From Streptosporangium sp. NBC_01495 (GTDB lineage: Bacteria > Actinomycetota > Actinomycetes > Streptosporangiales > Streptosporangiaceae), in NCBI RefSeq assembly GCF_036250735.1, contig NZ_CP109430.1, positions 1,364,001-1,428,000 of the forward strand: DNA of 64,000 bases, read 5' to 3'. Made by a program: the position numbers and the translations under genes. Positions 44,101-62,312 of this stretch are shown piece after piece (position 1 is the stretch's first letter; every line of letters begins with the position of its first letter). A model generated the notes under the pieces. That model had not been told where the DNA came from. It worked only from the letters and a program-made list of their open reading frames with translations, and did no database searches.

Positions 44101-44192
44101 CACGCCCGAGGTCGTGCCCGTGTCCGTGCCCACGCCCGAGGTCGTGTCCGTGCCCACGCCCGAGGTCGTGTCCGTGCCCACGCCCGAGGTCG
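44101..44192. repeat. 24-bp tandem repeat, about 3.6 copies
   Basis: Unit CACGCCCGAGGTCGTGTCCGTGCC: a first copy carrying a 6-bp insertion (44101-44130), two exact copies, and a partial fourth. It lies in non-coding sequence between OsmC and the tRNA. Open frames through it on both strands are low-complexity Arg/Ala or Thr/Gly repeats and were not called as genes. Confidence 0.85.
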
Positions 44193-44895: not shown

Positions 44896-46608
44896 TCAGA
44901 GACCGCGCATGTGGCGCAGCACCTGAGCGCGTACGGCGTCGTCGAGACCGTTGAGCAGGCGGTCGGCGCGGCCGTCGGAGGATGCCTTGAGCAGTCCGGC
45001 GACGATGACGGGGGGCACGTAGTCGAGCACGCCGCACGCTCTTTTCGCCGGCATCGTCTCGATCAGGCGGATGGCGAGCGGGGTCGTCGCGAGGACGCGG
45101 ACGATGCCGGCCGTGGTCCGGGCGGTGGTGCAGGCGAGGATCTTCGCGACCTCGCCGGGGGGTATGGCGCCCAGCAGCGCGCCGCTCCGCCCGGGATCGA
45201 TGTGGCTCAGAGCCTGGCCCGCGCGGGTCGTTCCCATCGCCCGCAGCACCGCGGCGGTCTCCCGCCGCCTGGTCGCCATCACGTTCAGCACGGGGCCGGC
45301 GGTTCTCGCCGGGATGGCGTCGAGGATCGAGGCGGTCCTGTCCGTGGACAGCTCCAGCAGGATCGCCGCCGCGGTCTCCGGCTCCATCCGGACCAGCACC
45401 CGCTGGACGGTCTCGGCGGGGAGACGGTCGAGCAGTCGCGCGGCGGGTGAGGCCGCCATCGCGCCGAGGATCCGGGCGGTCTCGGCCGGGTCCATTCTGC
45501 CGAGATCCACGGTTCGCTCCCGTGCACGGTCGGCGGCCCCGGCTCTCTCCCGCGCGCGTTCCGCGACCCCGGCCGGGCGCGGTGCGGGCGAGGCCTCGGC
45601 CGGGCGCGGTGCGGGCACGGCCTCCGGGTGGTGTGCCTCGGGGTGGTGCGGTGAGGGTGCGGCCCTGGGCGGACGCGGTGGGAGCGGTGGGTGCGGTGAG
45701 GGCGCGGCCCCGGCCGGACGTGGTGCGGGGGAGCGGCCGGGAGAGGGCGGCGAGGAGGAAGGTTCGGGGCGGCGCGGCGCGGGGGAGGGCGGGGAATCGG
45801 TGACGATCGACCTCAGGACCCCCTCCAGTCCCCGCGCGTCCATCCGCCGGCCGGGGTCCTTGCGGAGCAACCTGACGATCGCGTCGGTCAGTGGCCCCTC
45901 GCGGGCGAGGCGGGGCGGATCGTCGAAGGTGATGGCCTTCATGGTGGCCGGCACGTTGCCGCGGAAGAACGGGGAGTATCCCTCCAGGGCGTGGAAGAAG
46001 GTCGCCCCCAGAGACCACAGGTCGGCGGGCGGTCCCGGAGAAAGGCCGTTGATCCGTTCGGGCGCCATGTACTCCAGCGTGCCCGCGAAGGCGTTCTGCG
46101 AGGTGAGGCGGCTCTCGCCGACGATGTGGGCGATGCCGAAGTCGACGAGGAACACCTCTCCGCCCTCGCCGACCAGGATGTTGGCGGGCTTCACGTCGCG
46201 GTGCAGCACGTCGGCCCGGTGCGCGGCGGTCAGCGCGGCCAGCACCCGCCCGCCGATCTCGGCGATCCGGCGCTCGCCGAGGGGACCGTGCTCGATCAGG
46301 TCCTGGAGCGAGCGGCCCCTGACGTAGGCCATGACGATCCAGGAGAGGTCGTCCTCCACGAACATGTCGTAGACCTCGACGATGCCGGAGTGCCTGATCC
46401 GCGCCGCGGCCCGCGCCTCGCGCAGCACGCGCTGGCGGCGCACGGACAGGTGCTCCCCGTTCGGGAACAGGATGAGCTCCTTGAGCGCGACGCGGCGCCC
46501 GAGCAACTCGTCCTCGGCCAGCCACACGTTGCCCATCCCGCCGCTGCCGATCATGGACAGGAGCCGGTAGCGGCCGTTGACCACGCGGCCGTTCATCTCG
46601 GGGGTCAC
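44896..46608 (-). CDS. Serine/threonine protein kinase fused to MgtE-N-like helical repeats
   Basis: A 570-residue Hanks-type kinase. The glycine loop is G-S-G-G-M-G, the lysine V-A-L-K-E, the catalytic loop H-R-D-V-K-P-A-N, then V-D-F-G-I-A and M-A-P-E-R. After a Pro/Ala/Arg-rich linker (~275-355) comes a C-terminal ~210-residue array of helical repeats. Examples are L-D-R-L-P-A-E-T-V-Q-R-V-L-V-R-M and A-A-A-I-L-L-E-L-S-T-D-R-T-A-S-I-L-D, resembling the MgtE N-terminal (magnesium-sensing) superhelix. There is no membrane segment, so it is cytosolic. The kinase probably regulates the adjacent DUF4407/GTPase system. The GTG at 46608 is 6 bp after the DUF4407 stop; an ATG at 46596 is an alternative start. 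Confidence 0.87.
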   Translation of the reverse strand: MTPEMNGRVVNGRYRLLSMIGSGGMGNVWLAEDELLGRRVALKELILFPNGEHLSVRRQRVLREARAAARIRHSGIVEVYDMFVEDDLSWIVMAYVRGRSLQDLIEHGPLGERRIAEIGGRVLAALTAAHRADVLHRDVKPANILVGEGGEVFLVDFGIAHIVGESRLTSQNAFAGTLEYMAPERINGLSPGPPADLWSLGATFFHALEGYSPFFRGNVPATMKAITFDDPPRLAREGPLTDAIVRLLRKDPGRRMDARGLEGVLRSIVTDSPPSPAPRRPEPSSSPPSPGRSPAPRPAGAAPSPHPPLPPRPPRAAPSPHHPEAHHPEAVPAPRPAEASPAPRPAGVAERARERAGAADRARERTVDLGRMDPAETARILGAMAASPAARLLDRLPAETVQRVLVRMEPETAAAILLELSTDRTASILDAIPARTAGPVLNVMATRRRETAAVLRAMGTTRAGQALSHIDPGRSGALLGAIPPGEVAKILACTTARTTAGIVRVLATTPLAIRLIETMPAKRACGVLDYVPPVIVAGLLKASSDGRADRLLNGLDDAVRAQVLRHMRGL

Positions 46609-46614
46609 GCAGGG

Positions 46615-48015
46615 TCAGTCGTCGTCATCGGGGAACAGCTCGATCTTGCCGTGACGCTCGGACACCGGGCCGGTGGAGTCGGATCTGTGGAACACCCGGG
46701 TGCCCTGCATCGTGCGCAGCATGTCCTCCTCGACGGAGTAGTGGTCGTTGTCCGGGGCCTGCGGGTCGGTCAGATGCGCGGTCTTCGACGGTTCGGCCGG
46801 GGCCTGTGTCCTGCGGGTGGCACGCAGGGGGTCTGGTTCTTCCCAGATGTCCCATATCGAGGCGGAGTCGTCGTGGATCTTCTGCTGCGGCGCGGAACCC
46901 GCGGCCGGGGGGTGGGAGCCGAACTGGGAACTGTAGCTGTCTCGCGCGTCGCGGAACTCCTGCTTCGCCGCGAGGTTGAGGATCCTCTCGTAGTTGCCGG
47001 GCTTCTGCATCAGCTTGACCGCCACCGGCAAGCACTCGATGAGCAGGAACAGCAGGAACAGCAGGAGGTGGGTCGATCTGAGGGTGGTGTCCTCGCCCGA
47101 CACCTCGTTGAGGGCCTGCAGCCGGATCAGCAACCCGTCGGTGGTCCTGTTCTCCGCGTCGAACGCGTTCTGCAGGTCGCTCTGGCGCCGCACCGCCGCG
47201 TCGAGCAACTCCTGGGTCTTGGGCAGCGCCTGCGTCGCCTGGGCGAGGCGCTCCTTCTTGCTGCTCGCGTCCGTGGCGGTGAGCTCGGACTTGCGCTCCT
47301 CGATCTGCCGGTTGAGCAGGTCGACCCGGCTCTTGGCCTTCTCGTAGTTGCTCTTGCTGGCCTGGGCCAGGGGGCCGTTGCCCTTGCGCGGGCACGTCTT
47401 CCCGCCGTAGAGCTGGCACTGCCACTCGTCGTAGAGCTTCCTGGTCTGCACCTGCTGGGCGTCGCGGTCGGCGGTCAGTGACACGACCTTCGGGTCCTTG
47501 GCGGGATCCAGCGGGACGTCGCCCTCGGAGGTGATCACGCTCTGCAGGGCCGTCGTCTCCTTGCGGAGGCGGGTGACCTCCTGGGCGACGCTGCCGGTGT
47601 TCTGCCGCGTGGAGAACTCGTTGGCGCGCTGCTGCTTGATCTGGACGATCTGCGCGTCGATCTCGGACTTGAAGATCTGCAGCACCAGCGGGGTCGAGAT
47701 GACGAGGCCGAGCAGCACGGCCATGAGGATCCGGGGCAGGGCCACCCGCCAGCGCCGCGGCCCGTCGGCCTGCATGGTGCTGACCAGCCAGCGGTCGAGG
47801 CTCATGATGGCCAGACCCCAGACGAGGCTGGCCGGGATGGCGAGGAAGAGGGAGACTCCGAGTGCGGAGTTCAGGGCGAACGTCATCGACACGACCGCCA
47901 GCACGCTGGTGGTGAGCACCGCCCCGCCGATGCCCTCGAATTTCCCCTGCTCGGTAGGGCAGAGTTTCAAGATCTCTGGACGCGCGCCGGACAGGGTAAT
48001 CAGAAGTGTCCTCAT
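46615..48015 (-). CDS. DUF4407 membrane protein with periplasmic/cytosolic coiled coil
   Basis: A 466-residue protein. Three hydrophobic segments (about residues 32-50, 53-70, 95-112) are followed by a ~200-residue charged coiled coil (Q-I-V-Q-I-K-Q-Q-R-A-N-E-F..., A-K-S-R-V-D-L-L-N-R-Q-I-E-E-R-K-S-E-L) with a Cys pair near residue 200. A further membrane segment (~318-335) and an acidic, disordered C-terminal tail ending D-D-D-D come last. This is the DUF4407 layout. It is the first gene of a leftward pair with the kinase and is divergent from the vWA/GTPase/GAP1 operon. A role as the membrane-anchored component of the conflict system is inferred from position. Confidence 0.85.
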   Translation of the reverse strand: MRTLLITLSGARPEILKLCPTEQGKFEGIGGAVLTTSVLAVVSMTFALNSALGVSLFLAIPASLVWGLAIMSLDRWLVSTMQADGPRRWRVALPRILMAVLLGLVISTPLVLQIFKSEIDAQIVQIKQQRANEFSTRQNTGSVAQEVTRLRKETTALQSVITSEGDVPLDPAKDPKVVSLTADRDAQQVQTRKLYDEWQCQLYGGKTCPRKGNGPLAQASKSNYEKAKSRVDLLNRQIEERKSELTATDASSKKERLAQATQALPKTQELLDAAVRRQSDLQNAFDAENRTTDGLLIRLQALNEVSGEDTTLRSTHLLLFLLFLLIECLPVAVKLMQKPGNYERILNLAAKQEFRDARDSYSSQFGSHPPAAGSAPQQKIHDDSASIWDIWEEPDPLRATRRTQAPAEPSKTAHLTDPQAPDNDHYSVEEDMLRTMQGTRVFHRSDSTGPVSERHGKIELFPDDDD

Positions 48016-48319
48016 CTATTCCCCTTCCGAATGGCGACCGGGCTCGCGGTTATGAACTTAGATCATGGGCTGGGAGCGTCGCCATGACTTGGACACTATT
48101 ATAATTCTGTAAGGTGTGATTCCTTATACCGCAGGGAAATCAAGTCCGTGGGAAGCGCCGGAAGTGATCTTTGGTGGGGGCGGCGCGACGCTGACAAAGG
48201 ACAGAAAGACAATTACACCGCGGGTGTTCGGAACTCGCCGAGAGGATTCCGGGGCGGGCGGGGCCGCCGCGCCGACAGTAGTCCACGCCTTTCCTTAGAC
48301 GCGTTACGGAGGCTTCCAG
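48016..48319. promoter_or_regulatory. Divergent promoter region between the DUF4407 and vWA-like genes
   Basis: 304 bp with an unusually AT-rich core (TTATAATTCTGTAAGG around 48098-48113), containing TATAAT-like hexamers readable on both strands. It must drive both the kinase/DUF4407 pair and the vWA-GTPase-GAP1 operon. No operator palindrome stands out. Confidence 0.5.
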
Positions 48320-49756
48320 GTGCCCGATCCGGGTGAGGATCTGCTCCGCAAGGCCCTCGCCGGGGCGGTCGCGGGTCTCGACGAGTCCAGGCGGCTGACC
48401 GTGGTGGAGGTGGCCGCCGACGGCATCACCACTTTCGACCTGCGCCGCGACGAGCTGGGCAGGCCGCGCTGCAGGTTCGATCCGGTGGTTCCGTGGACCT
48501 CCCTGGCGGCCGGTCGCGGGTGGGACGGCGCCGGGCACGACCTCACGCGGCAGGACCCCACCGAGGAGGCCGTCATCCGCGCCGCGGGAGTCCCCTCCCA
48601 TGCCGCGCTGATCCTCGTGTGCTCCTTCCCCGACAGCCCCCTGGCCGGCCAGGCGCTGGCCTGGCTGCACGCCGCGTTCCCGGAGGCGGCGGCCTTCGTC
48701 CAGGCGGACGTGCGGGTCGACGCGCTGCTTCGCGACGTCGTCGTGAACGACCCGCTGGACCGCCCGTACGAGCTGGTCGTGCTGAAGCGGAGCGTCGCGA
48801 CGGGCCGGTTCGAGCTCGCCGCCCACCAGCTGTTCACGATCGGGGCTCGGGCCGGCGAGGTCGCCAGGGTCACCGCGCGCTGCGAGGCGGGTGACGAGCG
48901 GGGCACCGCCTTCGCCGTGGTGGCCTGGGGCCGGAGGCCGCTGCTGCTGTCGCTCCAGTCGGCGAGGCTCGTCCCGGGCCACTACGACTTCACGGTCGAG
49001 CTGGAGAGGCCGGGCAGGGTTCGTCTCACCGGCCTGCCCGGCCTGGTGAGAGACGATCGCAGCTGGGCCGACCTGGTCGCCGCGGTGCCGCGCGGGCTCG
49101 ACACCCGGACCGACTCGCAGCACCTGATCTGCGCGGTCGAGATCAGCGGGGCCCCGGGTGACGTCGCGAAGCGCCTGGAGCGCCTCCACCAGATGGTCGC
49201 GACGATGTCCGCGGGTGCCCCCGGCCTTCTTGAGGTGTCACTGGTCACCTACGGCGCGCACTCCTACGACCGGAGGGTCCCCGAGGGGGAGGTGGAGGTC
49301 GTGGACTGGCTGGTCTCTCCCGGACACGCGCTGGCCTCGCTGACCGGCCTGGAGGGGCGCCCCCCGGCGCCGGAGGGCCACCCGCACGGCGCGCAGCTGG
49401 AGGACATGCTGGCCGCGGTGGTCGGCCGGCTCACCGTCGGCGGGGCCGAGCGGACGGTGCTGCTCACGGTCGGCGACCGGTCGCCGCATCCGGCCAGGGT
49501 GGACGGGACGATCCTGCCCTGCCCGCACCGGTACGACTGGCGCATGCTGCTGGGCCGGCTCGAACAGTATCCGGGCATGGCGTTCGGAGCGATCTGCGAC
49601 CGGGACGTCGGGGAGGCCGACCCCGTCTGGTCCCGTCTGGGCGCGACGGCGTTGACCTGGCTGGACGCCCTGGACATCCGTGAGTTCGGCGCCGAGCTCG
49701 GCCTGTCGGCGTCCCAAGACCGATCGATCCCCTTCCCCCTCATCGAGGTGCCATGA
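48320..49756 (+). CDS. vWA-like conflict-system protein (homologous to the middle of the 906-residue protease-GTPase)
   Basis: A 478-residue protein. The N-terminal half is unrecognised; residues ~160-260 are beta-rich. The C-terminal half (H-L-I-C-A-V-E-I-S-G-A-P, V-S-L-V-T-Y-G-A-H-S-Y-D, V-L-L-T-V-G-D-R-S-P-H-P-A-R, I-L-P-C-P-H-R-Y-D-W) is clearly homologous to residues ~385-560 of the protein at 54547-57267. That region shares the motif [AI]-L-P-C-P-H-R-Y-D and a vWA-like Rossmann pattern, though a clear MIDAS (DxSxS) is absent (E-I-S-G). The GTG start has GGAGG seven bases upstream. Its stop overlaps the GTPase start by 4 bp. Confidence 0.75.
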   Translation: MPDPGEDLLRKALAGAVAGLDESRRLTVVEVAADGITTFDLRRDELGRPRCRFDPVVPWTSLAAGRGWDGAGHDLTRQDPTEEAVIRAAGVPSHAALILVCSFPDSPLAGQALAWLHAAFPEAAAFVQADVRVDALLRDVVVNDPLDRPYELVVLKRSVATGRFELAAHQLFTIGARAGEVARVTARCEAGDERGTAFAVVAWGRRPLLLSLQSARLVPGHYDFTVELERPGRVRLTGLPGLVRDDRSWADLVAAVPRGLDTRTDSQHLICAVEISGAPGDVAKRLERLHQMVATMSAGAPGLLEVSLVTYGAHSYDRRVPEGEVEVVDWLVSPGHALASLTGLEGRPPAPEGHPHGAQLEDMLAAVVGRLTVGGAERTVLLTVGDRSPHPARVDGTILPCPHRYDWRMLLGRLEQYPGMAFGAICDRDVGEADPVWSRLGATALTWLDALDIREFGAELGLSASQDRSIPFPLIEVP

Positions 49757-50766: not shown

Positions 50767-50788
50767 CCCCGATCAGGAGGACTGGCCG

Positions 50789-52711
50789 ATGAGCACGGTG
50801 CAGCTGCCGTTCGAGTGGGCGGTGGGAGGAAAGCTCCCAGGCAGCGGTGACGACTACAGGATTCTCGCCTGCAGCCAGGGGCTGCTCAGCCGCGACGACT
50901 TCGAGGAGATCAGAACGGTCTACACGATCGGCACCCCGGAGACGCTGCCCCAGGTCATGATCGCGTGGGTGGGCAGCGGCGACGACGCGCACCTGGTCCT
51001 GGCCATCCAGACCTGGTCGGACGAGGAGGACAGGCGGCACCGAAAGATCGCCCGCACCCGCTACTTCTGCGTGCCGTACGCCCGGATCGCCCAGTCTCCC
51101 CGCCCGGTGTCCTACGAAGACCTCTATCACGCGCTCAAGGGGTGCCCGCTGCCCATGGACGGGCAGCTCGTCGTCCACGTTCCCATGCTCGACTCCGGTG
51201 CGGTGGCGGCGAAGGTGAACGGGATGGCCATGAATACGGCCGCGCTGCTCATGACCGGTCAGCACGTCTGCGTCCTGGGAGGCGAGGCCGTTCCGATGGT
51301 CGAGCGCCTGCGGTTCCTCGACACGGTGGCCGCGCTGCTCCCCTACGGCATGCGCGCGAGGCTGGCGGTGTCCACCTGGGCCAGCAGCACCGCGGAGCAC
51401 AAGATCAGGCTCGCGTTCACCCAGCACGTCCCGGCCAGGACGTATCCGATCACCTGGGGGCAGCCGGCGGAGATCCCCGCCCACGAGGAGGACGCGTACC
51501 GCTACCTCGCCCTGCTGGGACGTCACGATCCGGACGCCAAGCTGGTCGACTGGCTCGCCGCGCGCACCGAACCGCTCACGTTCGGCAGGAACGGCAAGTC
51601 CCGCGCGCTGGACCTGCTCCGCGGGTTCAACCCTTCGTCGGTGCCGGCACTCATGCCCCCGCCCACGTCCGCGCGGCCGCCCGCCCAGGAGTCGCTGGAG
51701 GGGCTGCTGACCGAGTGCGCCGACGTCCTCGAACGCGGGGGGACGGCCGAGATCAGGGACGTTCTCGGCAGGCTGGACGCCATCGTCACGAGCCGCGGGC
51801 AGCTGATCTCGGATGACGAGCGGGCCCGCTACCAGAAGATCATCAGGGACCGGCGGCTGCTGTTGCCGAAAGATGGCCTGCCCGAGGAGCTGGAGACCCT
51901 TCTGCACGAGGTGGTCCGGATGGCCGGACACGGTGTGGCGGCCACGCCCGCGCAGCCGGGCCAGACCACCCGGGAAGTGGTCCAGCCGGCCAGGGTGTCG
52001 GCGACGGCGATCGTCCGCCACCCCCCTCCCGATCCGGTCGCCTCCATGAAAGCGGCCTACCAGCGGGGACGGGAGGAGCTGGAGGCGACGCTCAGGCCGC
52101 TGCAGACCAGGGAGCTGGTCGCGATGGCCGCGCGGCGGCCCCCCGACATGCGGGTGGTGCAGATCGTCCGTGACGAGCTCGTCAGGCGGGGCGGCGGCCG
52201 CGACGAGGATCCGGAGATCGCCGAGGCCCTGCGCGAGTACGGCTATCTCACCGACGTGATCGGCGCACTTCATCCGGCCGGTGACCGGGCCCAGTTCGAC
52301 GTGCTCCGCGATCTGTTGCGGGCGGCCTACGGGCCGGAACTCCACCCCAAGGAGTTCGAGGAGGTCTTCCTCTCCTCGGGCGGGCGGTCGGGGGTGCTGG
52401 CCGCCGCCGCGGTGACGCTGTTCGGCGTGGGCGCGGGGGAGGCCGTGAAGAAGTCCGTCATCAATCTCGTGCGCGGCTCGGGGCTCGATCACGAGATCGT
52501 CGAGAGGGTCGAGAGGCTGCTGCTCGAATCCGAGTCCGGCGTGAGCCACCTGACCTCCGCCGAGCCGTCGGGGAGGAGGTGGTTCGGGGGTAGGCACCGG
52601 AACCGCCGGGACAGACCTCTCATACCTCCCCTGACCATGTACTTCTTGACGATCATATTTGTCATCATCGCGCTGGTGGAGTTCTTCCTGCTGCTCGCCC
52701 TGAAGCCCTGA
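50789..52711 (+). CDS. GTPase-associated protein 1 (GAP1)-like protein with C-terminal membrane anchor
   Basis: A 640-residue protein whose first ~250 residues align with the next gene (Q-V-M-I-A-W-V-G-S-G, R-Y-F-C-V-P-Y-A, S-Y-E-D-L-Y-H-A-L, R-F-L-D-T-V-A-A-L-L-P-Y-G-M-R). They fit my memory of the GAP1 N-terminal domain family that co-occurs with DO-GTPases. The middle is helical, and the extreme C-terminus is a single hydrophobic segment (Y-F-L-T-I-I-F-V-I-I-A-L-V-E-F), so the protein is probably tail-anchored with the body in the cytosol. It follows the GTPase gene by 22 bp. Confidence 0.75.
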   Translation: MSTVQLPFEWAVGGKLPGSGDDYRILACSQGLLSRDDFEEIRTVYTIGTPETLPQVMIAWVGSGDDAHLVLAIQTWSDEEDRRHRKIARTRYFCVPYARIAQSPRPVSYEDLYHALKGCPLPMDGQLVVHVPMLDSGAVAAKVNGMAMNTAALLMTGQHVCVLGGEAVPMVERLRFLDTVAALLPYGMRARLAVSTWASSTAEHKIRLAFTQHVPARTYPITWGQPAEIPAHEEDAYRYLALLGRHDPDAKLVDWLAARTEPLTFGRNGKSRALDLLRGFNPSSVPALMPPPTSARPPAQESLEGLLTECADVLERGGTAEIRDVLGRLDAIVTSRGQLISDDERARYQKIIRDRRLLLPKDGLPEELETLLHEVVRMAGHGVAATPAQPGQTTREVVQPARVSATAIVRHPPPDPVASMKAAYQRGREELEATLRPLQTRELVAMAARRPPDMRVVQIVRDELVRRGGGRDEDPEIAEALREYGYLTDVIGALHPAGDRAQFDVLRDLLRAAYGPELHPKEFEEVFLSSGGRSGVLAAAAVTLFGVGAGEAVKKSVINLVRGSGLDHEIVERVERLLLESESGVSHLTSAEPSGRRWFGGRHRNRRDRPLIPPLTMYFLTIIFVIIALVEFFLLLALKP

Positions 52712-52725
52712 GCGGGAGGCCGGCC

Positions 52726-54516
52726 ATGCTGATAGAAGCCGAGTGGGCACTGTGGGGCGTACCCCCGGGAAGCAAGGACGCGCACGATGTCCTGTCCTGC
52801 AGCCGAGGACGGATCGGCCGCTCGGGTTTCTCCGCGCTCGTCGACCGGTACGCCAGGGTGACCCCCAGGAAACTTCCGCAGGTGACGATCGCCAGGGCGG
52901 GCGCAGACGAGGGCGCGCACCTCTTCCTCGCCGTCCAGAAGTGGTCCGGCGCGTTCGACGGGCTGGGGCGCGGGATAGCGGTCACCCACTGCTTCTGCGT
53001 GCCCTACGCGCAGGCCGTCTTCGGCCCCGTCTCCTACGAGGGGCTGTACCAGGCGCTGGACGGTCAGGCGGTGCCGTCCGACGGTGGCCCGCTCGTCGTC
53101 GCCCCACCGGAGCTGGACTCCGACGCCGTCGCCGAGGCCGTCGGTCAGACCGCGATGGGCGCGGCGGCCCTCCTGCTCACCGGCGAACGGGTCTGCGTCG
53201 TCGAAGGCGGCGGAGCGTCGCTGCTCGACCGGCTCCGGTTCCTGGACACGGTGGCCGCGCTGCTCCCGTACGGCTTCAGGACCAAGCTGATCGCCTCGAC
53301 GTGGGCTCCGTCCGCGGCCGAGCACCGCAGCAGGCTGTTCTTCGCCGAGCACCCGTCGGAGAACGCGTTCAACATCGTCTGGAGGCGGGAGGTGAGCGTT
53401 CCCGAGAGCCACGACGTCGCCCACCGCTATTACAAGCTGCTGACGGACAGGAAGAAGAACGGGCTCGCGGAGCTGATCGCGCGGTTCTCCCGCGAGACCG
53501 AGCAGCGGAAGTTCTCCGCGGAGACCCTGGCGGCGGTCCTCCCGGCCGCCGAGTCCGCAGCGGAGCCCTCCCCCACGTCGATCGACGACCTGCTGATCGC
53601 CTGTGCCGACAGCATCGAGGACGGGCGGGCGGGCCTGCTCCCCGGGCATCTGGCCCGGCTCGACACGCTGCGGGGTTCGGCCGCGGTGAACGGCAGTGTG
53701 CGCCGCCGGCGCAACATCGTCAGTGACCGCCGCCTCCTGACCCCGAGCGCGGCCCTGGTCCCGGCGGTTCAGGAGCATCTCTACGATCTGGTGCTGAGCG
53801 TGGCCTACGGGCCCGAGCTCACCGTCGACGGGCTCGACCAGATCCTCAAGGACGTGAATCCGATCTCCGCGCGACTGCTGGCCGCGCTGGCCCGGATGCC
53901 GGCGGCCGACTCGACCGTCACGTTGAGGCTCGCCGGCCGTCTCGACCCGCACCAGTCCGCGACGGCCCTCACGCTGCTGTCCGTCGAGGAACTGGTCGCC
54001 GCGGGGGAGCGGGAGCCGGTCGACCCGCCCGTCGTGCGGCTCGTGTGCTCGGAGCTCGCGGCCCGCTGGGCCGATCCCGGCCGGCGGACCGGTATCGGCG
54101 CGGCCCTGCGAGGTCGCGGGCGGCTCATGGCCGCGGTCGAGCGGCTCGACGAGGCCGACGCGGACGGTCAGTTCGAGAAGTACCTCGTCCTGCTGGTGAT
54201 CGACTACGGCCCGTCCCTCGACCCGGAGAAGGTACGGGAGGCCTTCACCTCTCATGCCGAGGTGTTGTCGGTGCCGCTGCTCGCCGCGCTTGCGCTGCTG
54301 TGCGACGTCCCCGCCCGCCGGTTGCTCCCGCAACTCGTCTTCCACGAGCTTCTCGGCCAGGGAGGCATCACTTCAAAGACCTTCGAGAAGTTCCAGACCG
54401 AGCACGACACCCCGGAGCCCCACCCGTCGCGGGCGCGCGCCACCCGGCCGCAGGAGTCCGGCACCGACCCCTCACTCCTGAGCCGCCTCGGGTTCACGTA
54501 CCGCAAACGCGTCTAG
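52726..54516 (+). CDS. Second GAP1-like protein (soluble paralogue)
   Basis: A 596-residue paralogue of the preceding gene product. It shares L-F-L-A-V-Q-K-W-S, H-C-F-C-V-P-Y-A, S-Y-E-G-L-Y-Q-A-L and R-F-L-D-T-V-A-A-L-L-P-Y-G-F-R, similar alpha-helical middle and C-terminal domains (R-R-R-R-N-I-V-S-D-R-R-L-L versus R-Y-Q-K-I-I-R-D-R-R-L-L), but has no membrane anchor. The 14-bp gap indicates co-transcription. It converges with the protease-GTPase gene 30 bp beyond its stop. A tandem pair of one membrane and one soluble GAP1 suggests a heteromeric partner for the GTPase. Confidence 0.75.
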   Translation: MLIEAEWALWGVPPGSKDAHDVLSCSRGRIGRSGFSALVDRYARVTPRKLPQVTIARAGADEGAHLFLAVQKWSGAFDGLGRGIAVTHCFCVPYAQAVFGPVSYEGLYQALDGQAVPSDGGPLVVAPPELDSDAVAEAVGQTAMGAAALLLTGERVCVVEGGGASLLDRLRFLDTVAALLPYGFRTKLIASTWAPSAAEHRSRLFFAEHPSENAFNIVWRREVSVPESHDVAHRYYKLLTDRKKNGLAELIARFSRETEQRKFSAETLAAVLPAAESAAEPSPTSIDDLLIACADSIEDGRAGLLPGHLARLDTLRGSAAVNGSVRRRRNIVSDRRLLTPSAALVPAVQEHLYDLVLSVAYGPELTVDGLDQILKDVNPISARLLAALARMPAADSTVTLRLAGRLDPHQSATALTLLSVEELVAAGEREPVDPPVVRLVCSELAARWADPGRRTGIGAALRGRGRLMAAVERLDEADADGQFEKYLVLLVIDYGPSLDPEKVREAFTSHAEVLSVPLLAALALLCDVPARRLLPQLVFHELLGQGGITSKTFEKFQTEHDTPEPHPSRARATRPQESGTDPSLLSRLGFTYRKRV

Positions 54517-54546
54517 GGCGGGCAGGCTGGGGCGAGCGGGCCCGTC

Positions 54547-57267
54547 TCAGGACCGCGCCAGCCAGAGGAACGGCTCCAGCACGTTGATCGGACGCACCTC
54601 GCCGCGTATCCGGATCTCGTCGCCGGATTGCGCGGAGCGGGCCGACCGGCCGCCCGCGGGCCTCGCCGGGATGAGGTTCTGGTAGTCCTCCATGTCGAAG
54701 AGCCCGCTCTCGGGGTTGACGTAGAAGCCGATCGACGAGGTCACGAAGTATCTGGTCCGGTCCTCGTGGAAGAAACGGGAGACGGCGTTCGGCACGATGT
54801 CCGTGTCCTCGCCGGGCGATATCCGGCACAGCTGCTGGAACAGCTCCTTCGCGTCCTCGCCGACCACCCGGGGAAGCCCGTGGGGATCCTCGGGGTCGAC
54901 GCTCAGCAACCTCAGTTGTCTCGCCGTCTCCAGGACCCTGAAGTCGTCGAACTTGGTGACGCAGACCGCGAGGCGTTGCGGCAGGCGGCCGGCCGCGTCG
55001 AGGTCCCGGCCGAGCTGTGGCAGCGTGCTCAGGAAGAAGCCGTAGGTGTCGTCCCCCTCCGGCTCACGGAGGGGGTCGAAGAGATAGACCAGGTCATCGC
55101 AGGCGGCCAGCCATCGCGTCATGTCCTCGTGCGGCCCGCCGGAGGTGTCCATGACACCGAGATGGAGACGGACGCCGGTCTCGCGGCGGCCCAACCCCAA
55201 GAAACCCCGGGACGGCCGGCTCGCCCAGATCGTCAACTCCGTGTCGTCCAGGACGGTGCCCGGCGGGGGGAACCCGCGTTCCTGTACGAGTGCGCCGGTG
55301 AGCGCGACGAGCTGATCGGCCGCCGCACGGTTGGCACCCAGCAGCGACAGGCCGGAGTCCTGGCGCAGGATCGCCACGTTGAGCGCGGCGAGAAAGGTCG
55401 CCTTACCGCTGCCCACGGGACCCAGCAGCCCGATGCGTCGCACGCGCTGGCCGGGTTCGGGCGCCGGACCGTGCTCGGCCGTGATCCTGCGCGTGGTGGC
55501 CGGCCTCCTGGCGGGGGCGACGTGCTGGATGGCCATCGCGTCCACGAGGGAGGCCGGGTCGGCCCGCTGGAGTTCCACGGAATGGTCGGCGCCGAGCCGT
55601 CGCAGGTGCGGGGACGCCCGATCCGGCGCGTCGTCGATGACGGTCATGAGACGCACCCCGCGCTCGGCGAGCCGCCTGGTCAGACTCTGGTGGTCGTAGC
55701 GGTGCGGGCACGGGAGCGCCGTCCCTCGGCTGGCCCTGGCCGGATGGGGCGGCTGCCTCGCCAGCACCAGCAGGACGACGGGATGGCCCGGATCGCCGGA
55801 GGGGAGACGGCGGTCGATGTAGTGCAGGGCGTCTTCCAGCGGGGCCGCCCCCGGGAACCTTTCCGACGTCGACTTCAGATTCGCCAGTGACGCCAGGGCG
55901 TTCTCCGCGGGCTCCAGCCAGGAGCCGGTGACCACGGGCCGGTGCCCGTCGCCTCCGCGGCTGAAGTCGTGGTAGGTGTAGCCGACGATCGCCACGTTCA
56001 CCTCGCCGGGGTATCTGGCCGCCAGCTGTTCGATCGTGGCCGCCGCCAGCTGTCGGCGCCGCAGGACGGCTTCGCTCCTGCCGGACATCTCGATGGCGAG
56101 GATCACGTCTGCCCGCTCCCGCCGGGGGACGGCGTCTCGTGCGGCCTGATCGTCCAGCGGGCCGTCCGGCGGCCCGGCGTCGTGATCCGGCGGGACCGTG
56201 GCGCGCGCCGGGGCCGGGCGGTCCTCCCGGTCCAGTACGTCGGGTCTCCTTTCGCGACCCGCGCGCAGCCGTCCGGGAAGCAGCGCGTCCACCTCTCGCA
56301 TCGTGATCGCCACGCCGCTTCCCGGCCCGTCGGCCCACAGGATCATTCCGATGACGGCCCCGTAGCCCGGGGACCACACCGCGGCGCCGCTGAGGCCGGG
56401 ATCCAGCCGATGGCCGGGGTCGGTGGTCAGCGTGACGTTCCCGTGGGCGGGAGCGGGGTCCATGACCCCCTTGACGACCACGCTCCGGCCCTCGCGATCG
56501 GGCAGCCCCGCCGCCGACCACCGCCGTCCGACCAGGTCGTCCACCTCGTCCAGCCGTACGGGCGCCGCGGCCACCTCGGGCGGGGGAGGCTCCCGGAGAA
56601 CCAGGATCGCCAGGTCGCCCCGGGATATCTCCAGCCTCGCCTCCGTCCTCGGGGCCACCGAGGCGCCGTACCGGTTCGCCCTGGGGAAGGTGACCCACAG
56701 CCGGCCCGTGGGCGGGCTGCCGGCCAGCAGGACGTGGACGCAGGTCAGCACCCGGCCGTCGTCGATGAGCACCCCGGTACCCACCGGCGCCGGGTCGTCT
56801 TCCAGGTAGATCGCGGCGACCCAGGTCCCCTCCTCGCCCGGCCGCCTCCCCTGCCGGGGTTCCCCGGGCACGCTCCGGGGATCGGGGTGGTGATCCTCCT
56901 CTTCGAGCGCGAGCGTGGTGACGCGCACGGGCAGGATGTCGATCCTGACGGTGGCGCCCCGCTGGGTGCTGAGGCTGAGCCGGAGCTCGTCGTCCCCGGC
57001 CTCCCCCCGCGCGGTCACGACGAACCGGGCGGGTCCGTACGTGCCGCCGAACCGGTGCAGGATCACCGAGATGTCGTCCACCGACTCGACGGCGATTCGC
57101 TCCCCGCCGTCGAGCATGCAGCTGAAGGCGAACTCCTCCTCCCGGTAGGGCCACTCGTCGCCGGGCCGCGCGAGCCTGAGATCCACCGTGACCAGGTACT
57201 CCTGGCCCACCGTCATGGTCCGGGGCCAGCTGACCAGCGGTTCCAGCTGGACGGTGGGCGGGCTCAC
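54547..57267 (-). CDS. Trypsin-like protease-vWA-like-GTPase fusion protein
   Basis: A 906-residue multidomain protein. Residues ~1-125 are an unknown beta-sandwich. Residues ~148-335 are a trypsin-like protease with a plausible triad His178 (T-C-V-H-V), Asp218 (S-R-G-D-L-A-I) and Ser293 (G-L-S-G-A-A). Residues ~385-580 are homologous to the vWA-like protein at 48320-49756, and ~610-906 to the GTPase at 49753-50766. The P-loop reads G-P-V-G-S-G-K-A (616-623), with Ala where Ser/Thr normally binds Mg2+, while the [NT]KxD motif (V-T-K-F-D) is retained; nucleotide hydrolysis may be impaired. No signal peptide. Last gene of the Trypco1-MoxR-vWA-CHAT operon, overlapping the CHAT gene by 4 bp. Confidence 0.88.
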   Translation of the reverse strand: MSPPTVQLEPLVSWPRTMTVGQEYLVTVDLRLARPGDEWPYREEEFAFSCMLDGGERIAVESVDDISVILHRFGGTYGPARFVVTARGEAGDDELRLSLSTQRGATVRIDILPVRVTTLALEEEDHHPDPRSVPGEPRQGRRPGEEGTWVAAIYLEDDPAPVGTGVLIDDGRVLTCVHVLLAGSPPTGRLWVTFPRANRYGASVAPRTEARLEISRGDLAILVLREPPPPEVAAAPVRLDEVDDLVGRRWSAAGLPDREGRSVVVKGVMDPAPAHGNVTLTTDPGHRLDPGLSGAAVWSPGYGAVIGMILWADGPGSGVAITMREVDALLPGRLRAGRERRPDVLDREDRPAPARATVPPDHDAGPPDGPLDDQAARDAVPRRERADVILAIEMSGRSEAVLRRRQLAAATIEQLAARYPGEVNVAIVGYTYHDFSRGGDGHRPVVTGSWLEPAENALASLANLKSTSERFPGAAPLEDALHYIDRRLPSGDPGHPVVLLVLARQPPHPARASRGTALPCPHRYDHQSLTRRLAERGVRLMTVIDDAPDRASPHLRRLGADHSVELQRADPASLVDAMAIQHVAPARRPATTRRITAEHGPAPEPGQRVRRIGLLGPVGSGKATFLAALNVAILRQDSGLSLLGANRAAADQLVALTGALVQERGFPPPGTVLDDTELTIWASRPSRGFLGLGRRETGVRLHLGVMDTSGGPHEDMTRWLAACDDLVYLFDPLREPEGDDTYGFFLSTLPQLGRDLDAAGRLPQRLAVCVTKFDDFRVLETARQLRLLSVDPEDPHGLPRVVGEDAKELFQQLCRISPGEDTDIVPNAVSRFFHEDRTRYFVTSSIGFYVNPESGLFDMEDYQNLIPARPAGGRSARSAQSGDEIRIRGEVRPINVLEPFLWLARS

Positions 57268-58580
57268 CGGATCTCCTCACGCGGCCTCAGGGTGGTCTTC
57301 GGGTTCCCGAAGTACGCGTACATGAAGGCGTAGAAGAACGGGAGCAGCCGCGCGCCGGCCTCATTGTCGTCCTCACGGGGGACGCCCACGACCGGTGCCG
57401 CGGCTCTTCTCCGATAGTCGCGCAGGGCCACGGCCACGGGGATGTCGGGGTTGTCGGTGAGCGTTTCGAGCAGGGCCTTCGCCAGGTCGTACCCGTGCTC
57501 CCGGCCGACCTCTCCCATGGTCCCGATGAACCCGGAGGCCCCCGCGTCGAGGAAGACCTTGGCGAAGCTGCGCAGCGTGGTGTTGTCGAGGTCGGGATCG
57601 ACCCTTTCCCTGGCGGAGTGGCAGGCGTTGAGGAAGACGAGCCCGCCGGCCTGCTCCAGACGGAGCAGGTCGTGCGCGTGGATCTCGCGGAGACTGATCC
57701 CGTGCTCCGAGCCGCGAGGACCCTCGATGAGTCTCATGTCGGCCTTGGAACGCGGGGTGTCGGTCTTCTCGTACTCCCCGTGGCAGGCCACATAGACCAG
57801 TGAGACGGGATCGCCCTCCGTGTCCAGGACGTTCACCAGGGTCTTGAGGGGGACATCCCTGGTGGTCGTCCGGAACCGGTCCAGCAGGGCACGGTCGCCC
57901 GCCATGTCGGGAGCGACATAGGTGAGGATCTCGCCGGTGCATCTGGTCACCACCGTGGTCGGCGTTCCCACCGAGCGGGCGATCGGGAACAGCGCGCCCA
58001 GCCACGCCTCGGCCAGGCCCTTGTCGCGGTGTCGCAGGAGTTCCCAGGGGAGGCCGTAGCCCGTGACATCCTCGATGATCATATGGACGTCGTCGCCGTG
58101 CGCCCGGCGGATCTCGGAGAGAAAGCCCTTGAGGCCCTCGCTGGCGTCCTTGGACCAGGTTCTGAGGCGTATCAACGTCTTGGTGGGGGATTCCCCGTCG
58201 TCGCCGCGGTGGATGAGGTCTCCCAGGGTGAGCCTGGAAGGTCTCACCTGTTGCGGCTGCCGCTGGTAGGCGAGCGCGATGCCGCAGCAGCAGACTCCCT
58301 GAAGGCCATAGCTCTCCCTGCCGGCGTCGCTGTCCTTCCACACCTTCAGGATCGCGGTCCCCGGGGGCAGACCGGCGTTGAGTTCGACGGGGGTCGGGGG
58401 AAGGGGGGGTGGTTCGGCGGCTTCCGCGCCGGCGGAGCCGACCGGCGGAATCCCCGCCCTCTCCGCCCCGGCACCTCCCTGCGGGGCTCCCCGTCCTCGC
58501 GCGTTCTCGGCGGCACGCGGGTTGAAGGGACGCCCGCCGCCGAGCAGTGCCCTGCGCAGCCTGTTCGGCAGGCCGGTCAC
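57264..58580 (-). CDS. CHAT-domain (caspase-like) protease
   Basis: A 438-residue protein. After a low-complexity N-terminus (residues ~20-65, Gly/Ala/Pro) and a ~180-residue linker domain comes a CHAT/caspase-fold peptidase. The catalytic His is His267 in Y-V-A-C-H-G-E, and the Cys is Cys320 in F-L-N-A-C-H-S-A-R. CHAT proteases are effectors in many bacterial death and immune systems, activated by partner NTPases. GTG start, overlapping the vWA gene stop and the protease-GTPase start by 4 bp each. Probably the executioner component, together with the trypsin-like protein. Confidence 0.9.
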   Translation of the reverse strand: MTGLPNRLRRALLGGGRPFNPRAAENARGRGAPQGGAGAERAGIPPVGSAGAEAAEPPPLPPTPVELNAGLPPGTAILKVWKDSDAGRESYGLQGVCCCGIALAYQRQPQQVRPSRLTLGDLIHRGDDGESPTKTLIRLRTWSKDASEGLKGFLSEIRRAHGDDVHMIIEDVTGYGLPWELLRHRDKGLAEAWLGALFPIARSVGTPTTVVTRCTGEILTYVAPDMAGDRALLDRFRTTTRDVPLKTLVNVLDTEGDPVSLVYVACHGEYEKTDTPRSKADMRLIEGPRGSEHGISLREIHAHDLLRLEQAGGLVFLNACHSARERVDPDLDNTTLRSFAKVFLDAGASGFIGTMGEVGREHGYDLAKALLETLTDNPDIPVAVALRDYRRRAAAPVVGVPREDDNEAGARLLPFFYAFMYAYFGNPKTTLRPREEIR

Positions 58581-60325
58581 CTGGGCTCACCACCCTGCTG
58601 AAGCCGGGCGCCGCAGGCCTCGGCCAGCGCGCGGGTCAGGGCCGCGCCCGGCCGGGGTCCTGGATCGAGGACCACGGCGTGGATTCGTTTCATCCTGCTC
58701 AGCTCCCGTGCCATCGCCAGCGCGTCAGCCACTCCCTCGCTGCCGACGCGGTCGGGCAGCTCGCCCGTCGCGCTCGCGCGCAACGGGACGTTGCCGCGTC
58801 CGTCGGTGACGATGACGAGCAGCACGTCGTCGGCCGGAACCCTCCCCACGTGGAGTCGGTGGCGCAGCGTCTCGACGGCCAGGTCGAGGCCGTGCGCGAG
58901 TGGGGTACAGCGGCCCACCGGCCGTTCCAGGGCTCGTACGACCCGGGGGTCGAGCAGGCTGGACGCGCTGAACCGCTGGGCGCGGAGTTCGTTGGCGACA
59001 TCCGCCGCGCCGACCTCTATCACGGAGACACCGGCCCTGCCGGTGTAGGCCCACTGCAGGTAGGGGGCGAGGGCGTCGAGCCAGTTCCAGCCGGTCCGGC
59101 ACGTGTGGTCGAGGACGAGGACGAGGAGCCTGGCCGGGGCGGCGCCGCGGCGATGAACCCTCAGGTCCGGCGGGATCAGGTGCAGGGGGTGCGGTGGACG
59201 GGAGTGGTGGTCCTCGCACCGCCGTGCCTGCATGGGGGCGGCGCCGAGGATGGTGGCGACGAGGGCCAGGTCGCCGAAGGCGCCCGGCCGCGACCCGATG
59301 GACCTGCCGTGGCTCGGCCGCGACGAGGAGTGCCGCGTGGTCGGCGAGCGAAGCGACCCCGGTTCTCGTTCGGGTTCGGTGTCGTCCTCGGGGTAGGGGT
59401 CGCCGGGGTCGGCGGGAGAGACGGGTCCCGGAGCGAGCGGCTGGGCGGAGGCCGGGGCCGCGACGCCGAACCCGTCCGCCCCCGCCGGGAGGGGGGGTTC
59501 CTCCCCGCCGGGCCGCCCCGCCACCTGGCCCCCTTCGAGGTCATGCCGCCCGTAGGCGACGCCGTCGCCGGCGTCGTGCCCCCGGTCGCGCGGTGCGGGG
59601 AGGCGCAGGAGGGACGCCGCCTGCCCGACGTCGGCGCTCGTGGTCCGCGTACGGCCGTCGAGGGTCGCCAGCGCCCGGCTGATCCTGGCGAGGGCGAGGT
59701 CACGGCGCGCACCGGCGGTGCCTGCCGGGACACGGTCGAGAACCTCTCGGGCGACCTCGTCGGGCACGGTCGCCGGCCGGCCCCGGGCCAGCGCGCGACG
59801 CCACCTCTCCGCCGGTGGTTCCAGGTCCGCGTGCAGCCCGGAGGCGTTGACGCGCAGGGGGAAGCGGTCGAGCAGATGGGGTGGGATCCGGCCGACGTCG
59901 GCGCGGGCGCAGGTGGCCACCCACCGGCTTCGCGGAGCCCAGGTCACGCTCAGTCCCTCGCGCTCCAGGTGGGCCACGTCGGCGTCCAGCAGGGTGATCG
60001 CGGCCCGCTGCCCGGTGAGCGAGAGCCTCGCGAGATCGGAGACGAGGACGGTGAGGGGAGGAGCGCCGCGTTTGTCGACGAGGGGTCCCGGCGAGACGCC
60101 GAGCGTGGGCCTGGAGGCCAGGCCGGTCCACGCGTTGTTCGCGACGGTCGACGCTCCCAGCACGTACGGGTGGGGGTTTCCGAGCAGCGAGCCGAGCCAG
60201 TGCCCGACGCCGAGGAGCAGGGCGGGCTCCAGGTCGAACAGGAGCACCCCGCGGAGCCGTGGGTCGAGCGCGGCGCACGCCAGGGCGTACCTCACTCGCG
60301 ATGCGGTCGGCATGGCCATGGTCAC
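58577..60325 (-). CDS. ChlD-like vWA-domain protein (MoxR partner)
   Basis: A ~582-residue homologue of magnesium-chelatase subunit D-type proteins. The N-terminal ~230 residues are a degenerate AAA+ domain (L-L-D-A-D-V-A-H-L, R-W-V-A-T-C-A-R-A-D-V-G-R-I-P-P-H-L-L-D-R-F). A long disordered linker (~250-360) follows, then a C-terminal vWA domain (L-V-L-V-L-D-H-T-C-R-T-G, T-P-L-A-H-G, L-V-I-V-T-D-G-R-G). The MIDAS DxSxS appears as D-H-T-C-R, so metal binding may be weakened. Its GTG overlaps the MoxR stop by 4 bp; an ATG at 60319 is an alternative. MoxR-vWA pairs act as ATP-driven chaperone-like activators of partner effectors. Confidence 0.82.
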   Translation of the reverse strand: MTMAMPTASRVRYALACAALDPRLRGVLLFDLEPALLLGVGHWLGSLLGNPHPYVLGASTVANNAWTGLASRPTLGVSPGPLVDKRGAPPLTVLVSDLARLSLTGQRAAITLLDADVAHLEREGLSVTWAPRSRWVATCARADVGRIPPHLLDRFPLRVNASGLHADLEPPAERWRRALARGRPATVPDEVAREVLDRVPAGTAGARRDLALARISRALATLDGRTRTTSADVGQAASLLRLPAPRDRGHDAGDGVAYGRHDLEGGQVAGRPGGEEPPLPAGADGFGVAAPASAQPLAPGPVSPADPGDPYPEDDTEPEREPGSLRSPTTRHSSSRPSHGRSIGSRPGAFGDLALVATILGAAPMQARRCEDHHSRPPHPLHLIPPDLRVHRRGAAPARLLVLVLDHTCRTGWNWLDALAPYLQWAYTGRAGVSVIEVGAADVANELRAQRFSASSLLDPRVVRALERPVGRCTPLAHGLDLAVETLRHRLHVGRVPADDVLLVIVTDGRGNVPLRASATGELPDRVGSEGVADALAMARELSRMKRIHAVVLDPGPRPGAALTRALAEACGARLQQGGEPR

Positions 60326-61257
60326 CCCGAGATGATCTCGTTCAGCTGGTCCCGCTCCTTGGTGGTCCACTTGATCGACTCTCCGTACACCGCCTCGGGA
60401 AGGCGGTGCGCCAGAGCGAACTCGGCCACCGCGCCGACGTCGTCGGAGGTGACGACCCTGTGCCCGTTCAGTGCCGCCTGCGCCCTGGCGGCCAGTGCCA
60501 TCACCTTCTCGCCGCGGTGCCCGGCCACCTCGAACCTCGCCGCGATCCGGGAGCAGAGGCCGAGGATCTCGTCCGGCGTCCTCACCTCGCCCACCCTCGC
60601 CCTGGCCTGTTCAAGACGCTTGCGTATCTCCCGATCCCGCGCGGCCCCCTGCTCCAGCCACGAGGAGGCCGGCTTGGTGATCTCCTCCTCGAACCGCAGG
60701 ACCGTGCGGAGGATCTCGTGCCGCTGCTCGACCGCAGTCTCGGCGCTGACCGGCACCAGCAGGCCGAACCGGTCGAGAAGCTGCGGGCGCAACCACCCCT
60801 CCTCGGGGTTCATGGTGCCGACGAGTGTGAACTTGACGGCGATCGCCGGCCGGTCGAGCCCTTCGCGATGGACCACGAGCACATTGGTCGAGGTGACGTC
60901 CAGGATGATGTTGACCAGGTGGTCGTCGAGGAGGTTGACCTCGTCGATGTAGAGGAGGCCCTGCTTGTCGGCGGCCTCCAGCAGACCCGCCTGCCACTCG
61001 GTCCTGCCCGTCATCAGCGCGTCGATGCTCCAGCCGCCCAGCACGCGGTCCTCGGTGGCGTTGATGGGCAACGTGATCGGGAGCCCGCCGTAGGCCATGA
61101 GGCTGAAGGACCGCACCGTGGTCGACTTGGCCGTGCCGCGCTCGCCGCTGACGAGCACGCCGCCGATGCCCGGCGCGATGAAGGCCAGCTCCAGGCACCG
61201 GCGCAGATCCGTCTGCCCGACGACGTGGCTGTAGGGCAGAATCCGTACCTCGGTCAT
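60322..61257 (-). CDS. MoxR/ChlI-type AAA+ ATPase
   Basis: A 311-residue AAA+ protein: Walker A G-E-R-G-T-A-K-S-T, Walker B L-L-Y-I-D-E-V-N-L-L, sensor 1 G-T-M-N-P-E-E, arginine finger region Q-L-L-D-R-F-G-L, and a C-terminal lid. 'GERGTAKST' and 'IDEVNLL' are magnesium-chelatase-I-like. Forms a hexamer in relatives and works with the vWA partner encoded next. It overlaps the Trypco1 gene by 4 bp. Confidence 0.92.
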   Translation of the reverse strand: MTEVRILPYSHVVGQTDLRRCLELAFIAPGIGGVLVSGERGTAKSTTVRSFSLMAYGGLPITLPINATEDRVLGGWSIDALMTGRTEWQAGLLEAADKQGLLYIDEVNLLDDHLVNIILDVTSTNVLVVHREGLDRPAIAVKFTLVGTMNPEEGWLRPQLLDRFGLLVPVSAETAVEQRHEILRTVLRFEEEITKPASSWLEQGAARDREIRKRLEQARARVGEVRTPDEILGLCSRIAARFEVAGHRGEKVMALAARAQAALNGHRVVTSDDVGAVAEFALAHRLPEAVYGESIKWTTKERDQLNEIISG

Positions 61258-61604
61258 GGAGTCGGTTTCCTCCAGCGCAGCGTCACCAGGATCTGCGCCC
61301 CTGAGCTCAACTCCACGATCTTCGCGCCGACCTTGCCGTCGACCTTCACGGCGAGTTGCATCTCGAACTCGTCGGGACGTGCCTTCTCCGCCATGGCCTC
61401 GATCTGGTCCCTCACCTCGTAGGCGCAGGTCGTCACCATCTGGATCGCCTCGCTGAACAGGTGACGGCTGATCACCAGCGGCTTTTCCAGTGGTCCCCGG
61501 GTGTCGCCGTCGTAGATCGAGGAGTGGTCATTCGTCGCTAATTCGTCGAGCTCGATTTGGATGGCCCCATGACCGGACGCACTCGGGACCGCCACCACAA
61601 CCAT
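61254..61604 (-). CDS. Trypsin-co-occurring domain 1 (Trypco1) protein
   Basis: A 116-residue beta-rich protein. Its C-terminal half (F-E-M-Q-L-A-V-K-V-D-G-K-V-G-A-K-I-V and I-L-V-T-L-R-W-R-K-P) matches the Trypco1 pattern (v.fGvkl....gaviA......f.VtL.Wrr). These small proteins are the constant component found beside trypsin/MoxR conflict modules. First gene of the five-gene leftward operon; the ATG follows GGTGAGGTTTC. Presumably an adaptor linking sensors to the protease. Confidence 0.8.
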   Translation of the reverse strand: MVVVAVPSASGHGAIQIELDELATNDHSSIYDGDTRGPLEKPLVISRHLFSEAIQMVTTCAYEVRDQIEAMAEKARPDEFEMQLAVKVDGKVGAKIVELSSGAQILVTLRWRKPTP

Positions 61605-62048
61605 GAAACCTCACCGAAGATTGATGTTCTTCTCTGTACCGCGTGGCAGGTCACCGATTCTGCCGTAGATACCGGCGCGCGTCACCATATCCGGTGATGT
61701 GCTCTTTGGAATGCGACGTGGTGGATTCTGCTGCCGACGGGTCTCGAATGAAACATCTCGCATTCGGCGGGGCGGGGCGGGTGTCCTGCGTCGTCGTGGG
61801 TCGTGAAAGGTCTCGGGCCGCCCGAGAGGCTTTCATGATCCGTTCATTGGGGGAGAGGTCCGAGGTCCTGCCGGTGTTCCGGGATCCTCGCCCGGGTGGG
61901 CGGGCTCCGCGCGAGGGCGGGCTCACGGAGATCTATAAGGGCATTTAGGGGAAATAGTACGAAATATCATCCTAACTCTGGTTGGTGTCCGAGGGGCCCG
62001 TGGAACGGCCGCCCCTCGTCCCTCTGCCGTCCCTCCGGGTTCCGCCGG

Positions 62049-62312
62049 CGGATAACCGGAAAGCCCGTCCCGGCTCCGCCGATGCGCGACCGGAAAGCCC
62101 GGGTGGACTCCGTCGGCGCGTGACGGGAAAGCCCGTCCCCGATCTGTCGGTGTGTGACGGGAAAGCCCGTCCCGGCTCTGCCGGTGCGTGATTGGAAAGC
62201 TCGTCCCGGCTCCGCCGATGCGCGACCGGAAAGCCCGGGTGGACTCCGTCGGCGCGTGACGGGAAAGCCCGTCCCGGATCTGCCGGTGCGTGATGGGAAA
62301 GCCCGCCCCGTA
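62049..62312. repeat. 34-bp imperfect tandem repeat, about 8 units
   Basis: Eight head-to-tail units of ~34 bp, each containing the core GGAAAGCCCG (hairpin CGGG-AAAG-CCCG in several copies). Units starting at 62083 and 62219 are almost identical, as are those at 62117 and 62253, so a higher-order block of four units (136 bp) has itself been duplicated. There are no spacers, so it is not a CRISPR array. The surrounding non-coding region 61605-63056 contains no gene I can support. Confidence 0.85.

Follow-up and report, generated by a model that had tools for sequence, protein, structure and literature searches.

Are two kinds of predicted bacterial conflict system, one centred on a GTPase and the other on an AAA+ ATPase, independent neighbours when they share a locus, or do they work as one machine? 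The question is raised by a block of genes (positions 44896-61604) in a 64,000-nucleotide stretch of the genome of Streptosporangium sp. NBC_01495 (assembly GCF_036250735.1, contig NZ_CP109430.1, positions 1,364,001 to 1,428,000 of the forward strand), called here the window. An initial annotation of this DNA had joined the two module types into one pathway. The block is, in our view, probably a conflict-type hybrid that connects two switches in series, with a vWA-GTPase tandem as the docking plug. By open reading frame (ORF) calls and translations, the block contains 11 intact genes, not the nine first counted, and the ORF positions confirm their tight packing into three transcription units: the kinase and DUF4407 genes on the minus strand; the genes of vWA1, GTPase, GAPa and GAPb on the plus strand; and, again on the minus strand, the genes of Trypco1, ChlI, ChlD, CHAT and what we call the bridge protein. 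The first two units are referred to below as the left arm, and the third as the right arm.

The bridge protein and the proposed mechanism

The bridge protein, described earlier as a trypsin-GTPase fusion, does contain both of these parts, and in fact consists of four: an N-domain, common to other proteins encoded in the same slot of right-arm operons, a trypsin domain (Trypsin_2, 39 bits against a Pfam cut-off of 28), a vWA domain and a GTPase-like domain. The vWA part is 36% identical to vWA1 and the GTPase part is 47% identical to the left-arm GTPase, and the tandem matches the two left-arm gene products in order. An altered motif residue is seen in nine of ten fused G domains. As judged from these comparisons, the tandem is related to the left-arm vWA1 and GTPase genes and has in part degenerated. 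In the bridge protein of Streptosporangium sp. NPDC002524 (P0046), trypsin His and Ser are replaced and the P-loop is changed, and this protein apparently represents a non-enzymatic form. Gene order, domain content, homology and degeneration of the tandem, and recurrent joining with different partners (see below) are direct observations.

The docking, the order of events, the trigger and the outcome in the following scheme are what we infer. The left arm would be a membrane-linked GTPase switch, made of the GTPase, vWA1 and two GAP1-like regulators, with the kinase and the DUF4407 protein. ChlI-ChlD would act as an ATP-driven remodeller working on the N-domain protein and on CHAT. The fused vWA-GTPase may be a docking plug with the active GTPase, or the vWA protein paired with it, as its target (compare the proposed pairing of DO-GTPases), and would hold the trypsin to the GTPase machine, in analogy to the principle of effector-associated domains (EADs). 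Trypsin would thus answer both to the state of the GTPase and to remodelling by ChlI-ChlD, two keys, GTP and ATP, being needed before proteolysis. Firing would release proteolysis by trypsin and CHAT, presumably stopping or killing the attacked cell; an anti-phage or programmed-death role is suggested by analogy.

The left arm

The kinase with its helical repeats and the DUF4407 protein, as well as CHAT and Trypco1 of the right arm, were recovered by Pfam under the names that had been given to them. The kinase translation has HRD, DFG and VALK motifs, and four hydrophobic segments were located in the DUF4407 protein by a simple script. These two genes had been regarded as layers not usually listed in such systems. 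This is partly wrong, as GAP1-N2 systems that include a kinase and a standalone vWA have been described (PMC7159879); DUF4407, on the other hand, has no occurrence in the main text of that paper (Kaur et al. 2020), and yet its gene is found in 45 of 59 related left-arm loci. vWA1, which had been called vWA-like, has no match to any Pfam family.

The GTPase falls below the gathering cut-offs of Pfam DO-GTPase1 and DO-GTPase2 (19.7 and 19.4 bits, respectively, against 27). Despite these scores, the earlier DO-GTPase assignment is supported, in the form of a DO-GTPase-like protein, by profile-profile comparison: hhalign matched the family to six GTPase genes near canonical GAP1 genes at 97.4% over 261 columns (E 1e-11), and a GAP-like profile compared to the same six genes gave 0.1%. 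The comparison GTPases were picked by length and P-loop, with a Pfam check on L184 alone (DO-GTPase2, 44.1 bits). The P-loop Lys, the T/S residue and the G3 Asp are conserved in all 63 scorable relatives; a conserved glutamate in Walker B is given as a feature of DO-GTPases in PMC7159879.

GAPa and GAPb are 38% identical over 524 amino acids (E 3e-92). Both had been called GAP1-like, and neither has a match to GAP1-N, GAP1-M, GAP1-C or any other Pfam family at an E threshold of 1. In the family as a whole, 15 of 32 aligned members touch GAP1-M at E of 0.1 or less (best E 0.003); the register in which hhalign aligns the family with GAP1-M is plausible but has an E of no better than 0.096, compared to 0.1-0.95 in 20 column-shuffled controls. 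GAPa has the position expected of GAP1, directly downstream of the GTPase. Taken on sequence, the GAP1 assignment of the two proteins is a weak one. The predicted structure of GAPa provides leads, with an N-terminal half that may be TagF/DENN-like and a C-terminal half that may be ARM/HEAT-like. The closest named relatives of GAPa are Streptosporangium proteins.

Elsewhere in the same genome (L184, G000:C1:4112000-4130000), a canonical GAP1 gene (GAP1-M, 76.8 bits) adjoins a DO-GTPase2 gene that scores over the cut-off, so that the left arm of the window is an additional, divergent system. Three loci of Frankia and Protofrankia (L047, L050 and L056) each have two left-arm-type GTPases on opposite strands, the second copies being divergent, plus two GAP-type ORFs. 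A plasmid of Streptomyces sp. NBC_01558 (L203) carries genes for GTPase, GAP-like protein, vWA and kinase, in this order, resembling a distant left arm.

The right arm

The AAA+ ATPase of the right arm had been taken for a MoxR ATPase with a ChlD-like vWA partner. The latter holds: the partner scores best with ChlD/BchD models (BchD-ChlD, 95.9 bits, under the model cut-off, best stretch 353-589). The ATPase itself scores best with chelatase models (cobaltochelatase, 292 bits, and BchI-ChlI, 235 bits, under the equivalog cut-offs of 779 and 467). In Pfam and NCBIfam together, chelatase models come closest to the AAA/vWA pair. The N-terminal motifs of VMAP-type MoxR proteins, WxhapG and PsWRxa, were not seen by eye in the translation of 60322-61257, and no window protein has a Pfam match to VMAP-C. 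Both catalytic residues of CHAT are in place (His in ACHG and Cys in NAC); in the eight right-arm CHATs tested, NAC is present in all and HG in seven, the Frankia protein being unmatched by the His pattern.

We read ten right-arm loci: the window, G204, G050, G090, G172, G197, G532, Frankia canadensis, a mobilizable Streptomyces plasmid and Nonomuraea gerenzanensis. ChlI, ChlD, CHAT and the N-domain protein are present in all ten, which were collected through CHAT, N-domain or GAP searches and are therefore no sample of ChlI-ChlD pairs at large; a Trypco1 match is found in seven. The N-domain is rare, occurring in five of 200 family genomes and in three of 394 in the class sample (the window's own genome, G532 and G395). 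The slot protein consists of the conserved N-domain followed by interchangeable cargo: trypsin-vWA-GTPase in the window and G204, VMAP-C and NYN in G050 and G090 (EAD2 too in G050), TPR in G172 and G197, TIR-NB-ARC-TPR in G532, and trypsin-EAD2 on the Streptomyces plasmid. The cargo in Frankia canadensis has no Pfam match. Through these cargo types, and despite its chelatase-like AAA, the right-arm operon is linked to the MoxR-vWA conflict systems that Kaur et al. 2020 describe. The slot protein of Nonomuraea gerenzanensis (L202:8864-11362) combines the N-domain with CBM48 and an alpha-amylase-like domain, a cargo that one would hardly expect in a conflict system.

Distribution and joining of the two arms

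The entire block, with the same gene order and the same flanks, is conserved in a second species (G204). In the genus sample, relatives of GAPa are present in ten of 16 genomes and the CHAT gene in two, and both CHAT-bearing genomes, the window's own and G204, have the complete block. The left-arm marker is found in 59 of 200 family genomes, representing 19 of the 68 genera in that sample. In two relatives, G189 and G170, both flank genes lie on one contig, 18 and 32 kb apart; neither arm marker is present in these genomes, and no convincing block gene was found between the flanks (one 30-bit local match in G189). Absence of the block from this site fits gain or loss alike.

Several observations weigh against the wiring of the two arms into one system. 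Most of the left arms seen have no adjacent right arm, and most of the right arms no adjacent left arm. Among the 200 family genomes, the left-arm marker occurs in three of five that have a right arm and in 56 of 195 others (Fisher p 0.15), and in two of the three genomes with both arms the arms are unlinked; co-occurrence by itself is therefore no evidence of coupling. In S. vulgare, GAPa and the bridge protein are listed on different contigs. Among the fused proteins, P0046 has lost the trypsin His and Ser, and P0044 the Asp. The local GTPase has closer relatives than the fused GTPase, so that a recent duplication within the locus gives no grounds for expecting the two to bind. The claim of one pathway stands in part. 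The arms occur alone in most genomes examined, which is half of what the initial annotation had named as a refutation; their joining is therefore a feature of a few lineages and does not hold for the two modules in general, and the case for coupling is made by the shared vWA-GTPase tandem and the recurrence of joining.

Such recurrence is seen in three of the 59 left-arm loci, those of Actinomadura chibensis, A. mexicana and A. soli (L014, L017 and L020), where the GAP gene has as its immediate neighbour, on the other strand, an operon for a MoxR-type AAA and a SAV_2336-type vWA protein (284, 256 and 288 bits; cut-off 200). A second, almost complete copy of vWA1 (38% identity) forms the C-terminal end of the SAV_2336 protein. 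The third gene of this operon has a weak VMAP-M0 match (E 0.0087) in one of the three loci, and scores far under the cut-off with the model of ProA, an anti-phage protein. In the vWA tree, the Actinomadura fused copies fall within a 36-row set with 100/100 support and the Streptosporangium fused copies outside it; this placement, made under the tool's long-branch warning and with fused rows that fill 37% of columns, suggests that the vWA fusions arose twice. In Frankia canadensis, GTPase-GAP, DUF4407 and the ChlI-ChlD-CHAT-N-domain operon all lie within 14 kb, with no fusion and no match to vWA1, kinase or Trypco1.

We give an even chance to a joint reading of these loci, in which the two core switches of published NTP-dependent conflict systems would have been wired together at least two times: in Streptosporangium by attachment of the vWA-GTPase tandem to trypsin within a ChlI-ChlD-CHAT system, and in Actinomadura by attachment of vWA, without the GTPase, to the vWA protein of a MoxR-type operon. 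As an effector-associated docking module, the tandem would then place a suicide protease behind a gate with two keys, GTP and ATP. ChlI-ChlD-CHAT-N-domain would be a further, chelatase-type ternary conflict system.

Alternative explanations

One alternative concerns the purpose of the block and not its wiring. It is possible, if somewhat doubtful, that the block serves signalling or development in multicellular actinomycetes (in envelope stress, aerial growth or programmed hyphal death) rather than defence against phages. The kinase, the membrane parts (DUF4407 and the hydrophobic helix of GAPa) and the spread of left-arm markers over 19 genera are in line with this, as is the lack of any relative of the GTPase in the phage records searched. 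Slot cargo such as VMAP-C, NYN, TIR-NB-ARC and EAD2 is, however, typical of conflict systems, one right arm resides on a mobilizable plasmid, and the block is missing from the corresponding site in two relatives.

It appears rather unlikely that two independent conflict systems share one insertion site, the fused vWA-GTPase being captured, decaying cargo (a decoy or a dominant-negative domain) that is functionally unconnected to the left arm. Under such a scenario, one would expect what is seen in the usual separation of the arms, in the high variability of slot cargo, the amylase-like protein included, and in the altered fused G domains, and inactive captured effector modules are stressed by Kaur et al. 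2020 (PMC7159879). Yet the cargo mirrors the two products of the neighbouring operon in order, block synteny is retained in the second species, and in Actinomadura an operon of the same type lies directly beside another, separate fusion, that of vWA1 to a MoxR-type operon.

A metal (cobalt or magnesium) chelatase operon with unrelated neighbours, already disfavoured, is very improbable: ChlI/ChlD models score well but under equivalog cut-offs, a search confined to the 11 proteins of the block found no chelatase large subunit, and CHAT and the N-domain protein accompany ChlI-ChlD at all ten right-arm loci read, which had been collected through CHAT, N-domain or GAP searches.

Layout of the block

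The kinase and DUF4407 genes are spaced by 6 bp, vWA1 and GTPase overlap by 4 bp, and gaps of 22 and 14 bp separate GTPase from GAPa and GAPa from GAPb. The right-arm operon is convergent with GAPb across 30 bp, with overlaps of 4 bp (bridge/CHAT), 4 bp (CHAT/ChlD), 49 bp (ChlD/ChlI) and 4 bp (ChlI/Trypco1). Beyond the Trypco1 gene, at 62034-62310 of the window, there is an imperfect tandem array with units of 34, 102 and 136 bp (94% matches for the 136-bp unit); a smaller 24-bp array is found at the opposite end of the block, at 44094-44192.

Table 1. Genes of the block, with coordinates in the window
Product	Position	Strand	Evidence
Ser/Thr kinase, 570 aa, C-terminal MgtE_N/FliG-like helical repeats	44896..46608	-	Pkinase 155 bits, MgtE_N 64.9 bits (Pfam)
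DUF4407 membrane/coiled-coil protein, 466 aa	46615..48015	-	DUF4407 268 bits, cut-off 31 (Pfam)
vWA1, 478 aa, left-arm vWA-fold protein without canonical MIDAS	48320..49756	+	
DO-GTPase-like GTPase, 337 aa	49753..50766	+	P-loop, DxxG, TKxD intact
GAPa, 640 aa, GAP1-like (weak assignment), hydrophobic helix at C-terminus	50789..52711	+	
GAPb, 596 aa, GAPa paralogue	52726..54516	+	
Bridge protein, 906 aa: N-domain 1-~125, trypsin ~160-310, vWA ~380-585, GTPase-like ~608-906	54547..57267	-	
CHAT-domain caspase-like protease, 438 aa	57264..58580	-	CHAT 41.5 bits, cut-off 24 (Pfam)
ChlD-like protein, 597 aa, vWA at C-terminus	58577..60370	-	BchD-ChlD model 95.9 bits
ChlI/BchI-type AAA+ ATPase, 311 aa	60322..61257	-	AAA_5 52.9 bits; AAA_lid_2 (Pfam)
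Trypco1 protein, 116 aa	61254..61604	-	Trypco1 49 bits, cut-off 24.6 (Pfam)

Relation to published systems

The component families and the general idea belong to published computational predictions (PMC7159879, PMC8195603, PMC11237479, PMC10910872), and the block is a new variant on these systems; none of the literature searches made listed a report of this hybrid. With the MoxR-vWA ternary systems (VMAP, iSTAND, FtsH, beta-propeller; PMC7159879) it shares the general plan of a MoxR-clade AAA+ ATPase, a vWA partner, a protease, a variable third component and Trypco1, and sister right arms have VMAP-C and EAD2. It differs from them in the chelatase-type scores of AAA and vWA, in the lack of VMAP-type W motifs and VMAP-C in the window, in CHAT, which all ten loci read encode as a gene of its own, and in a third component that is an N-domain protein with interchangeable cargo. 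The left arm resembles the DO-GTPase/GAP1-N2 systems of the same paper in the order of its genes, with the GAP-type protein after the GTPase, in its vWA and kinase themes, and in the C-terminal hydrophobic helix of GAP; unlike them, it has a GTPase under the Pfam cut-off, regular DUF4407, and no zinc-ribbon, FNIII or GAP1 Pfam match among the 11 block proteins. In the Actinomadura loci, likewise, a MoxR-type system that converges on the GAP gene has a left-arm vWA copy fused to one of its components, but MoxR-type AAA and SAV_2336 vWA replace ChlI-ChlD-CHAT, and the fusion is without trypsin or GTPase. As in the EAD logic of Kaur et al. 2020, a domain copy of a core component is fused to an effector in the same locus, except that a vWA-GTPase tandem, in place of a small adaptor domain, is here the module in common.

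Conflict systems do not swap their core pairs with one another, according to Kaur et al. 2020 (PMC7159879). At the level of fusions, the window and Actinomadura loci look like counter-examples to this rule, in so far as a divergent GTPase and a chelatase-type AAA count as such pairs. The N-domain is a mark by which other searches may recognise the chelatase-type AAA/CHAT module, whose cargo is swappable. Fusion of a module of the GTPase system to the protease of the AAA system would provide a concrete link between two predicted immune systems, and bears on whether bacterial conflict systems are layered two-lock circuits, as has been proposed on general grounds for multicellular bacteria.
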